Assembly: GCF_007994135.1 (NCBI RefSeq)
Contig: NZ_VLKF01000001.1
Location: 3,596,001-3,660,000, forward strand
Length of the DNA: 64,000 nt
Direction of reading: 5' to 3'
Origin: Modestobacter roseus
GTDB lineage: Bacteria > Actinomycetota > Actinomycetes > Mycobacteriales > Geodermatophilaceae
A program made the translations under genes and the position numbers. Within the stretch, counting starts at the first letter, position 1, and each line of letters begins with the position of its first letter. The notes under the pieces were generated by a model. That model saw only the letters and a list, made by a program, of their open reading frames with translations. It did no database searches and was not told the origin of the DNA. Of the stretch, positions 14,903 to 18,304 are shown piece after piece.

Positions 14903-17509
14903 TCAGTTGGCCATGTCGACGAAGCGGGAGTAGTGGCCCTGGAAGGCGACGGTGACGTTGGCGGTGGGGCCGTTGCGGTGCTTGACCAGCATGATGTCGG
15001 CCTCGCCGGCTCGCGGGGACTCCTTCTCGTACATGTCCTCGCGGTGGATCATCATCACCATGTCGGCGTCCTGCTCGATCGAGCCGGACTCACGCAGGTC
15101 GGACAGCATCGGCTTCTTGTCCTGACGCTGCTCCGACCCACGGTTCAGCTGCGACATGGCGATGACGGGCAGCTCGAGCTCCTTGGCCAGCAGCTTCAGC
15201 GCACGGGAGAACTCCGAGACCTCCTGCTGGCGGCTCTCGACCTTCTTGCCCGAGGTCATCAGCTGGAGGTAGTCGATGACGATGAGCTTGAGGTCGTTGC
15301 GCTGCTTGAGCCGCCGTGCCTTGGCCCGGATCTCCATCATCGTCATGTTCGGGGAGTCGTCGATGTAGAGCGGGGCGTCGGCGATCTCGCCCATCCGCCG
15401 GGCCAGCTTCGACCAGTCCTCGTCCGACAGCGTGCCGGCGCGCATGTGGTGCAGCGGCACCTTCGCCTCGGCCGACAGCAGACGCATGGTGATCTCGTGC
15501 TTGCTCATCTCGAGCGAGAAGATCGCCGCGGGCAGGTGGTGCTTCACCGTCGCCGACCGGGCGATGTCGAGCCCCAGGGTGGAGTTGTGCGTCGGGATGA
15601 AGCTGCGGCCGGCCAGGAACAGGTGGTCCTCGGCGTCGACCTGGATGCAGCGCACCGGGACGCTGGCGATCGGGCGGACGTCGGTGATGAACCGGACCCC
15701 GCGGGCAGTGAACGTGCGGGCCCCTCGCTCCTTGTGCAGCAGCTTCTTGCGCTCCAGGCGGAAGACCTCGTCGTCGGTGCTGAAGGTGAGCGTGAAGCAC
15801 GTCGAGGAGTTCTCGCTGCGACCAGGCACCCGCTTACGACTCATCCGGACCCGGTGGCCGAGGCCGGCGATGAGCTCACGGACGTCCTCAGCGAGCCGCT
15901 GACTGGTGACGGCGAACTGGACGACACCGCTGACAGCCACCGTTCCGTCGGTGTCGAGCAGACCGGCCAGGAGCGCCTGACGCTGCGCCACCGAAGCCCG
16001 CAGGTAGGCCGCCGGGATGTGCTTGTTCCCCAGCACGCCGAGAGATCGCAGCAGGCCCGTGACCGTGCCGTGGTCGGCCAGGCATGCTGCGCACTGCACG
16101 AGGCCGGCGGATGGTCCCCCGCAGTCCGGGCAGGTGGCCGTGCGACCGGTACCACCGCTGGCGCGCAGCGCCCCACCGCAGGTCTTGCCGCAGGTCTGCA
16201 CCTGCGACGTCTTCGGGACGAAGAGCTCACCGCACATCGGGCAGGCCCGGGCGGCCGGCCCCGACTGGGCGGGCAGCTGGAGCGCGTACCGGCGGTCGAC
16301 GTTGGTCGGCACCACGACGAGACCGTCGGCCTCGATGTAGGCGGCGATCTCGGGGTCCGCGCTGGTGTAGTGGGCACTCGCCGAGGTGCCGTCGCCCAGC
16401 CACACCCCGAGCGCGTAAGGGGGCAGCGACAGCTCCGCGGCCGGCAGCTCCAGCGGCGCGGCGTTGCGCACCGAGTGGTTGAGCCGGGAGTCGGCCGTAC
16501 TGCAGCGAACAGTGCGGGCGATCTCCTCCGTCGTCCGGACGGCGGCGAGTTCCCGGGGCACCCCAGCACGAGCGCGTGCCTCCTGGGCCGAACGGCGGCT
16601 GGCGCGGGTGTCGGTGAGCCACTGGTGCTGGGCGTCGGCCACGATCACCGAGCCGTCGGAGAAGTGGACCTCGTAGCAGGGCCGGTCGGTCATCGTCTCG
16701 GTGGCGGCGACGACCGTGGTAGGACGGCCATCCGAACCGATCACCTGGTCGCCGACGGCGACCTCGCCCATCGTCGTCCAGCCGCTGGGCGTGGCGACGG
16801 GGGTGTCGAGCGCCAACGCCTTGCCCACCCCAGGGCGGGCGGCGATGACGACCATCTGACCGGCCTGCAGGCCGTTGGTCAGCTCGTCGAGGTCGCGGAT
16901 GCCGGTGGGCACGCCGCGGGCCGTTCCACCCCGTGACGCAATGGCGTCCAGCTCGTCCATCGTCGGCTGCAGGACGTCCTCGAGGCGGGAGTAGTCCTCG
17001 CTCATCCGCTTCTCGGTGACGTCGTAGATCTCCTGCTGGGCCCGGTCGACGATGTCGTCGACGTCGCCCTTGCCACCAGCCGCGCCGTAGCCCAGCTGCA
17101 CCACGCGGGTGCCGGCCTCCACCAGCCGCCGCAGCACCGCCTGCTCGGCGACGATCGCGGCGTAGTAGCCGGCGTTGGCGGCGGTCGGGGTCGAGGCGAT
17201 GAGCGTGTGCAGGTAGACCGCACCGCCCATCTTGGACAGCTGGTCGGTGCGGTTGAGCTCCGCGGCGACGGTGATCGCGTCAGCCGGCTCACCACGTCCG
17301 TAGAGGTCGAGGATGACGTCGAAGACGATCTGGTGCGCCGGGCGGTAGAAGTCCGGGCCGGCCAGGACCTCCACGACGTCGGCGATCGCGTCCTTGCTCA
17401 TCAGCATGCCGCCGAGCACCGACTGCTCGGCCGCGACGTCCTGAGGGGGCTGGCGGTCGTACTCCGGAGCCGTCGGCCTCGGCCGGCTGATGTCGTCGAC
17501 GACCGCCAC
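14903..17509 (-). CDS. dnaB: Replicative DNA helicase DnaB, intein-containing
   Basis: DnaB unwinds the fork. GTG 17509 is chosen (GGAG 7 nt upstream), giving 868 residues: 456 of helicase and a 412-residue intein. The extein has the N-terminal DnaB domain (about 20-125: PPQDVAAEQSVLGGML, TPTAANAGYYA), a linker (about 125-195) and the RecA-like domain beginning PTGIRDLDELTNGL. The intein interrupts Walker A between Lys230 and Ser (RPGVGK/STLGLD). Walker B LIVIDYLQLM, the SQLNRG motif and LSDLRESGSIEQDAD follow in the C-extein, so the spliced enzyme appears complete. In the Rv0058-like context it lies beyond rplI, separated from it by an unusual non-coding stretch. DciA, the DnaB loader, is encoded at 56477. 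Confidence 0.97.
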   Translation of the reverse strand: MAVVDDISRPRPTAPEYDRQPPQDVAAEQSVLGGMLMSKDAIADVVEVLAGPDFYRPAHQIVFDVILDLYGRGEPADAITVAAELNRTDQLSKMGGAVYLHTLIASTPTAANAGYYAAIVAEQAVLRRLVEAGTRVVQLGYGAAGGKGDVDDIVDRAQQEIYDVTEKRMSEDYSRLEDVLQPTMDELDAIASRGGTARGVPTGIRDLDELTNGLQAGQMVVIAARPGVGKALALDTPVATPSGWTTMGEVAVGDQVIGSDGRPTTVVAATETMTDRPCYEVHFSDGSVIVADAQHQWLTDTRASRRSAQEARARAGVPRELAAVRTTEEIARTVRCSTADSRLNHSVRNAAPLELPAAELSLPPYALGVWLGDGTSASAHYTSADPEIAAYIEADGLVVVPTNVDRRYALQLPAQSGPAARACPMCGELFVPKTSQVQTCGKTCGGALRASGGTGRTATCPDCGGPSAGLVQCAACLADHGTVTGLLRSLGVLGNKHIPAAYLRASVAQRQALLAGLLDTDGTVAVSGVVQFAVTSQRLAEDVRELIAGLGHRVRMSRKRVPGRSENSSTCFTLTFSTDDEVFRLERKKLLHKERGARTFTARGVRFITDVRPIASVPVRCIQVDAEDHLFLAGRSFIPTHNSTLGLDIARSATVKHHLPAAIFSLEMSKHEITMRLLSAEAKVPLHHMRAGTLSDEDWSKLARRMGEIADAPLYIDDSPNMTMMEIRAKARRLKQRNDLKLIVIDYLQLMTSGKKVESRQQEVSEFSRALKLLAKELELPVIAMSQLNRGSEQRQDKKPMLSDLRESGSIEQDADMVMMIHREDMYEKESPRAGEADIMLVKHRNGPTANVTVAFQGHYSRFVDMAN
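15584..16819 (-). mobile_element. DnaB intein, class 3 (Ala1, WCT motif), with LAGLIDADG endonuclease
   Basis: The 412-residue insert runs from ALALDTPVATPSGW to SFIPTHN and is followed by Ser+1. Residue 1 is Ala, not Cys or Ser. Block B ends HQW (His65, Trp67), block F has VRCIQVD (Cys391), and block G has PTHN (Thr410, His411, Asn412). Trp, Cys and Thr in these places define class 3 inteins, in which the block-F Cys makes the first branched intermediate. The homing endonuclease has two LAGLIDADG helices, ALGVWLGDG (136-144) and LAGLLDTDG (284-292). Between them are two Cys4 clusters (C193, C196, C210, C214; C230, C233, C243, C246) that look like zinc fingers. Both splicing and homing motifs appear intact, suggesting a functional selfish element. 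Confidence 0.93.
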
Positions 17510-18304
17510 GCTGGATCTCCCTGTCCGCCGGCCCACGTCGGGACCGGCTGTTGCTGTGCTGCTGGTGCGGACCGCATGACGGCCTGCCTCCGGGCGTGCG
17601 CCGACCGTCGGGTCGTTGCTACCGCCGGGCACCGACAGTTCGGCGCCCGGCGGCAGCTGGGGAGGACGTTAGGAAGCTGCGGCCCCCACGTCCAACACCG
17701 CTGTGCACGTCGATCTGCACAACTTGTGGACAAGTCGGTGGACGACGGTGGTCGCCGTGTGGACGGCCCCGGGGACGACGGCCGGTTGCGTCCCGGCAAC
17801 CCCCTCGTCACCTGCGGCGCAGCCGCTCCAGGGTTGTGGACGGGAGAAAGTCCGACACTTCCCCGGCGCGGCGTGCCGTCGGCGTGTCGTCGGCGTTCCC
17901 GCTGGTCACATGCGCACCGCTGCGCATCACCGGACCGGTCGCGGACGGTCGTGACGGGGGCCACGGTCGGACGGCGGGCGACCGGCAGGTGAACGGCGAC
18001 CCGAGGTCGGGTCCGGTGACGGCGGGCGCGGTCGGCGCCGGGCGGGAGCAGCAGCTCTGGCGTGAGAGGGCTCCCACGCCGCCGCGTCGTCCACCGTCGT
18101 CCCCACCGTCGGGCACCGTTGTGCACCGTGATGTCCACAGACTGTGGAGAAGTCGACACGTGGCTGCGGTCGCTGGCCCCGACCCGGCGGCCCGGGGCAG
18201 CGGACCTGTGGACGGAACGCCACGAGGGGCGCCGGACCGGAGTCCGACGCCCCTCGTGGGCGGTGCTGTGGTGCCGGCGGGAGGATCAGCCGGCGACGAC
18301 GTCC
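17510..18304. other. 795-bp non-coding stretch with DnaA-box-like sites
   Basis: No convincing gene: the open frames here lack homology and agree in no frame. The stretch holds a rplI terminator (18221-18258) and several 9-mers resembling DnaA boxes: TGTGGACAA (17725-17733, perfect complement of TTGTCCACA), ATGTCCACA (18131-18139), TGTGGAGAA (18143-18151), and TGTGGACGG at 17758-17766, 17835-17843 and 18207-18215. The first lies in the palindrome ACTTGTGGACAAGT. The dnaB promoter should also be here. A DnaA-binding or titration role is inference. Confidence 0.5.
18221..18258 (-). terminator. Intrinsic-type terminator after rplI
   Basis: CACGAGGGGCG (18221-18231) and CGCCCCTCGTG (18248-18258) form a perfect 11-bp stem, extended inside by CGGAC/GTCCG. 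It sits about 45 bp after the rplI stop and separates the ribosomal-protein operon from dnaB. No U-tract follows, as is common in high-GC actinobacteria. Confidence 0.75.

Follow-up and report, generated by a model that had tools for sequence, protein, structure and literature searches.

Paired Cys4 groups in the endonuclease of a predicted class 3 DnaB intein, and synonymous variation at its insertion point

INTRODUCTION

What do two groups of cysteines contribute to an intein that interrupts the Walker A motif of DnaB, and what lets such an element come and go among close relatives? These questions are raised by a locus in a stretch of 64,000 nucleotides from Modestobacter roseus (contig NZ_VLKF01000001.1, positions 3,596,001 to 3,660,000; hereafter the window). 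An initial annotation, made from the letters alone, had read the locus as a dnaB gene with a class 3 intein whose LAGLIDADG endonuclease holds two Cys4 groups. The closest known systems are DnaBi1 of M. smegmatis, described by Kelley et al. 2018 (PMC6195587) as sharing the insertion site and the Trp-Cys-Thr (WCT) set, and DnaB1 of M. chimaera (6bs8 and 6rix, respectively). Both have the same insertion site, Ala1, WCT set, Cys48, and splicing-domain fold as the window intein; they are mini-inteins without an endonuclease, whereas the Modestobacter intein keeps its LAGLIDADG and Cys4 parts. PI-SceI, TliVMA, PI-TkoII, and PI-PfuI, like the window intein, have a LAGLIDADG endonuclease inserted in the splicing domain. 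Accessory DNA-binding parts, two of them helix-turn-helix-like, are reported for PI-SceI and other inteins, lying in some cases between the endonuclease and the C-terminal splicing part and in others inside the splicing domain (PMC8966425). The window module is instead Cys-rich and lies at residues 193 to 246, between the LAGLIDADG repeats, a placement different from that of the archaeal VMA-type ACD.

RESULTS

The dnaB locus and its intein

The open reading frame was identified as dnaB by Pfam (DnaB, 5.6e-33; DnaB_C, 4.4e-100), and its nearest proteins are DnaB of Modestobacter, Geodermatophilus, and Blastococcus. The intein-bearing gene is present in one copy in the 4.5 Mb genome. Relatives start at codon 42, which gives a precursor of 868 aa and agrees with the 456-residue spliced DnaB forecast by the initial annotation. 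The position and length of the intein given there were confirmed to the base: its 1236 nt (412 codons) split Walker A between GVGK and Ser+1 (Table 1). Cysteines occur at intein residues 48, 106, 193, 196, 210, 214, 230, 233, 243, 246, 341, and 391. The precursor would presumably be inactive until splicing, as is likewise only assumed in the paper on M. smegmatis DnaBi1 (PMC6195587). Some relatives (L011, L012, L014, L016, P0010, P0018, and others) carry a second intein further along dnaB, seen as fragments split near residue 849-850 and as 1297-aa proteins with Pfam PF14890.

Table 1. Features of the intein-bearing dnaB gene, in window coordinates
Feature	Position	Strand	Remarks
dnaB with in-frame intein	14903..17632	-	909 codons from first possible start
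Class 3 intein, 412 aa	15584..16819	-	Junctions read by base; aligned with 6bs8 and 6rix
N-terminal splicing part, residues 1-95	16535..16819	-	Ala1, Cys48, Asp62, His65, Trp67
First LAGLIDADG helix, residues 134-143	16391..16420	-	YALGVWLGDG; Asp143
Cys4 group 1, residues 193-214	16178..16243	-	CxxC-x13-CxxxC
Cys4 group 2, residues 230-246	16082..16132	-	CxxC-x9-CxxC
Second LAGLIDADG helix, residues 277-291	15947..15991	-	Ends LLAGLLDTD; Asp291
C-terminal splicing part, residues 376-412	15584..15694	-	Cys391, Thr410, His411, Asn412
-1 codon AAG	16820..16822	-	Walker A Lys; 5' half of proposed homing-site core
+1 codon TCC	15581..15583	-	Ser; 3' half of proposed homing-site core

Class 3 splicing signature

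Judged by its sequence, the window intein belongs to class 3, being of the DnaBi1 type known from mycobacteria, and it still has its endonuclease attached. Position 1 is Ala and thus offers no Cys, Ser, or Thr nucleophile, while the Trp-Cys-Thr set of blocks B, F, and G is present as W67, C391, and T410 at positions that match 6bs8. The block B DxxH (D62, H65) and the C-terminal His-Asn (H411, N412) are also in place, and the C-terminal splicing model TIGR01443 matched residues 659-684 of protein P0001 (16.5 bits; cut-off, 15.6). A sequence search of the PDB returned M. chimaera DnaB1 (6rix; 2.2e-39) and M. smegmatis DnaB1 (6bs8; 1.7e-37), both of which align with the window intein starting at residue 1 and again at its C terminus. 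The predicted model (64-row alignment; pLDDT, 93.0; pTM, 0.89) superposed on 6bs8 with an rmsd of 1.1 over 125 residues.

The same signature holds across the insertion site. Among 190 distinct inteins at the dnaB site, collected with a pattern that put no constraint on position 1, Ala1, Cys48, Asp62, His65, Trp67, THN, and the Cys of block F were each present in 190/190. The true junction therefore carries Ala and no canonical Cys, and the WCT residues stand where the initial annotation had placed them. Earlier sets of 92 and 153 inteins came from a pattern that demanded Ala1 and THN, and only their other columns count as evidence. Cys48 (window 16676-16678) is the redox disulfide partner in DnaBi1, where a Cys48-Cys118 bond is reported to pause splicing and Cys48 is termed nonconserved (PMC6195587); since it is invariant in the 190 inteins, the redox switch may be general. 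By pattern, several viral relatives (L152, L158, L162, and others) begin with Pro and one, L155, with Cys, all with the block F Cys kept; L155 might be an intermediate between classes 1 and 3.

Endonuclease and Cys4 groups

The endonuclease of the window intein is probably able to cut DNA. Its match to the LAGLIDADG_3 profile is weak, though above the cut-off (28.7 bits versus 22.5), and 325 residues of the predicted model match the PI-SceI precursor, which points to a PI-SceI-like fold. Both LAGLIDADG motifs are present with both catalytic acids (Asp143 and Asp291); the two acids are kept in 124/153 distinct inteins at the dnaB site. Decay at the level of single residues was also seen: L215 lacks Asp143 and Cys193, and L224 lacks Asp291 and parts of both Cys4 groups.

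As the initial annotation had it, C193/C196/C210/C214 and C230/C233/C243/C246 lie between the two LAGLIDADG helices, which occupy residues 134-143 and 277-291 in the predicted model. The conservation that this reading depended on was found. All eight cysteines are intact in 116/153 distinct inteins at the site and in 110/117 among the nearest proteins, which is more than chance would give; because the named half of the 153 was found partly by a peptide pattern containing two of the cysteines, that set favors intact groups. The insertion had also been called uncommon. Across actinobacterial genera it is the usual state of the dnaB-site intein, whereas it was not seen in those class 3 inteins of other hosts that were inspected.

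The Cys4 groups are under purifying selection. Over 40 rows, dN/dS was 0.15 in group 1, similar to the LAGLIDADG parts, and 0.24 in group 2, compared with 0.40 and 0.31 in the adjoining linkers. In an alignment of 57 modules, selected for at least eight Cys, the eight cysteines are invariant, and their spacing is kept down to 36% identity. These results argue against the proposal that the insert is passive and its cysteines incidental, which we regard as very improbable even though the slot varies in length and tolerates precise losses. Profile matches point to zinc ribbons: DZR_2 matched 34/57 modules (best, 8.8e-6; the window's own module fell under the cut-off), and the best fold matches of group 1 were the FCS finger and YacG, both weak.

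Might the groups act on splicing as a zinc or redox sensor, rather than on DNA? Zinc is reported to inhibit splicing of mycobacterial DnaB inteins reversibly (PMC7360933). Against this, many dnaB-site inteins that are splice competent by sequence do without the Cys4 groups, including mini-inteins of 141-145 residues in which every splicing residue is kept, and we consider a regulatory role unlikely. Losses tend to affect the Cys4 groups and the nuclease together: 109/153 inteins keep both and 22/153 neither (full split: 109, 15, 7, 22), and the 73 rows found without the Cys pattern split 41, 10, 2, and 20 in the same order. In a tree that omitted the slot and the two acid columns, the differing pairs always went the same way and were too few for significance, so we rejected joint loss as proof of joint function.

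Host families are given here by code, f1 being the host's own family and f8, f10, and f16 other families. In f16, 18/35 inteins, of a kind about 440-475 aa long, have a single CxxC...CxxC and no double set, and the double Cys4 set is found in 5 inteins of about 509 aa.

The same slot in class 3 inteins of other hosts

Class 3 inteins from other hosts have splicing and endonuclease parts in common with the dnaB-site intein. None of the 12 distinct bacterial examples that were inspected (dCTP deaminase-, PhoH-, and FtsK-like, and others, with hosts named by inspection), has a double Cys4. Where the DnaB inteins carry these groups, three FtsK-like P-loop inteins (L126, L128, and L135) have a helix-turn-helix candidate, with HTH_23 above the cut-off in one (8.9e-7) and weaker in the other two. 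A position list of 64 viral loci contained two CxxC pairs inside the intein in 0/64. Of nine viral inteins inspected in full, five (L150, L151, L154, L155, and L159) hold in the slot a CxRGH...CxxC motif that no Pfam model recognized, and another, L169, sits in a DnaB-like host, in the same kind of P-loop, without the Cys4 module. Because some other class 3 inteins hold a candidate helix-turn-helix or CxRGH...CxxC in the same place, the slot appears to house a DNA-recognition module that can be exchanged.

Occupancy and a silent core at the insertion point

Intein presence and absence flip often between close relatives. Comparison of close genomes for empty dnaB sites, suggested in the initial annotation, yielded 13 empty and 9 occupied sites in Modestobacter, with one genome (70% complete) giving no match. 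Among 89 f1 genomes, occupancy changes at least 22 times on a dnaB tree from which the ten codons flanking the insertion site on each side were omitted.

Occupied and empty alleles differ right at the insertion point. With the home core of each family defined from its occupied alleles, the four families together had it in 116/119 occupied and 34/93 empty alleles; this analysis is post hoc, the codon having been spotted in the 13 empty Modestobacter alleles and then tested in larger sets that include them. The occupied core is AAG/TCN (the slash marks the insertion point), or AAG/AGC in f16. In f1, a C-junction followed by TCN was found in 44/112 genomes and one followed by AGY in 0/112, while empty sites had 26 AGY and 23 TCN (leaving out of the latter G113, which is occupied and also has a second, GLGK gene). 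In the f1 tree set, from which G807 (extreme branch) and three more occupied genomes without usable flanks had been dropped, 40/40 occupied alleles were AAG/TC; the 49 empty ones were 18 AAG/TC, 25 AAG/AG, 5 AAA/TC, and 1 AAA/AG. The mirror image was seen in f16, where occupied alleles were 35/35 AGC and empty ones 12/16 TCN, a count that includes G145 and G194, otherwise left out of f16 counts for their far-off dnaB copy. The home core was present in 34/36 occupied and 8/22 empty alleles of f8 (G313 was dropped from the tree) and in 8/8 and 6/8, respectively, of f10. Within the f8 count, 12 mini-intein genomes each had TCN at the C-junction by pattern lookup; two of them had an extra non-Ser pattern match elsewhere.

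Could shared ancestry or local codon bias account for the pattern? The core was seen by inspection, tested on sets including the same genomes, and set from the occupied alleles, all of which leave room for such an account. Tree-independent pairs went the same way in 11.1/15 for f1 (median p, 0.001), 7.2/8 for f16 (0.016), 5.6/10 for f8 (0.06), and 1.5/4 for f10 (0.5); only f8 contributed pairs the other way (0.07). Summed, 25.4 pairs went the same way and 0.07 the other way (sign test, 25/25; 6e-8), and the least favorable pairings gave 20 to 1 (2e-5). Tree tests thus support the link between core and occupancy in f1 and f16, are borderline in f8, and have too few pairs in f10. A general Ser-codon bias of intein-bearing genomes was rejected, as the gene's other Ser codons show no such link (TCN:AGY, 565:184 versus 673:233). 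Ancestry or bias is, in our judgment, quite improbable.

The signal is also narrow and local. Of 630 positions scanned in f1, the first two bases of the +1 codon were the only ones with p < 1e-3 (3e-9), and in f16 only -1 to +2 passed this threshold. At -1, empty alleles had an excess of AAA over the rest of the same gene in f1 (6/49 versus 3/688), f16 (9/14 versus 2/157), and f8 (13/22 versus 69/300); none was seen in f10. An order-wide core rule was rejected: at matched sites, some of them second dnaB-like genes, seven further families had 61/75 AAG/TC, 8 AAA/TC, and 6 AAG/AG. Since these are mostly AAG/TC, AAA is not a general preference of the Walker A Lys, and the core pattern is not universal.

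The main rival of synonymous escape is co-conversion, in which homing copies the donor's junction bases along with the intein, so that occupied alleles show the donor core and empty alleles vary. The Ser codon would then be locked in, since any path between TCN and AGY takes two steps and passes through a non-Ser codon. This account predicts one core per intein lineage, as in f1 (40/40 TCN) and f16 (35/35 AGC), and for haloarchaeal MCM inteins it has been proposed that the final N-extein codon travels with the intein (PMC10643990). It leaves the AAA excess at -1 in f1, f16, and f8 unexplained, and a long co-converted tract was not seen at the 630 positions per family in f1 and f16, where only 0 and +1 and -1 to +2, respectively, stood out, although later drift would erase a tract. 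We view co-conversion as a possible explanation, yet not the probable one. A tie between escape and exposure was rejected: in f1, empty sites kept the home core in 6/8 cases in genera without the intein versus 12/41 elsewhere (p = 0.039), but the comparison was not significant in f8, f16, or f10.

DISCUSSION

We think it likely that the class 3 intein in the window is full length and mobile and belongs to the DnaB-b (P-loop) allele, that its Cys4 groups form a zinc-held accessory DNA-recognition module, and that the silent core is a nuclease target from which alleles can escape. From the invariant residues, and from what others have shown for close mini-inteins, Cys391 would attack the Lys/Ala1 junction, the N-extein would pass to Ser+1, and Asn412 would then cyclize, leaving DnaB with an intact Walker A. 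In homing, the LAGLIDADG domain would cut an empty dnaB at the insertion point, and repair would copy the intein in. The Cys4 groups are most likely held by zinc as an accessory recognition module, in a slot where class 3 inteins from certain other hosts have different modules.

We infer that the fixed synonymous core is the core of the nuclease target and that host alleles escape by silent changes. LAGLIDADG enzymes are reported to cut across four central base pairs (PMC3936771, PMC8966425), and the core signal, two to four bases long, straddles the insertion point. A spreading nuclease would leave alleles that it cannot cut, and in the Walker A motif synonymous ones would be the only cheap kind. 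In its broadest form, the reading is that a zinc-finger class 3 intein uses the silent P-loop sequence (the -1 base and the +1 Ser codon) as its address, that actinobacterial dnaB has escaped many times synonymously, and that one family's intein has been re-addressed from TCN to AGC, which would make the synonymous codons of an essential gene the ground of a natural arms race. We offer this tentatively, as a proposal with slightly less than an even chance of being right. Escape and co-conversion may both act.

A parallel comes from haloarchaeal MCM-d inteins, for which empty mcm alleles also differ right at the insertion point (PMC10643990). That difference is an amino acid (Pro versus Ser) and was put down to splicing, whereas the dnaB difference is synonymous, and so splicing cannot explain it. 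In the open-access literature that was available on synonymous resistance, co-conversion, and natural resistant target sites, we found no account of the dnaB intein system, nor, in that on zinc in intein endonucleases, a description of a Cys4 class 3 intein.

Yeast HO and WHO are intein-derived LAGLIDADG proteins with a Cys-rich zinc finger region, HO requires zinc, and the two are presented in PMC7282813 as the sole known fusions of an intein with a zinc finger. In both, the finger region lies at the C terminus, exteins are absent, and no splicing occurs, whereas the window module is internal and its intein lies in frame within DnaB. The dnaB-site Cys4 intein family would be another such fusion. 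Zinc binding by the Cys4 groups, if real, would place bacterial inteins beside yeast HO/WHO as combinations of intein and zinc finger, with a recognition slot that can be swapped inside a LAGLIDADG enzyme. Were the silent core indeed the target, these dnaB genes would provide a natural example of host resistance to a homing element without protein change, the central issue in resistance to gene drives.
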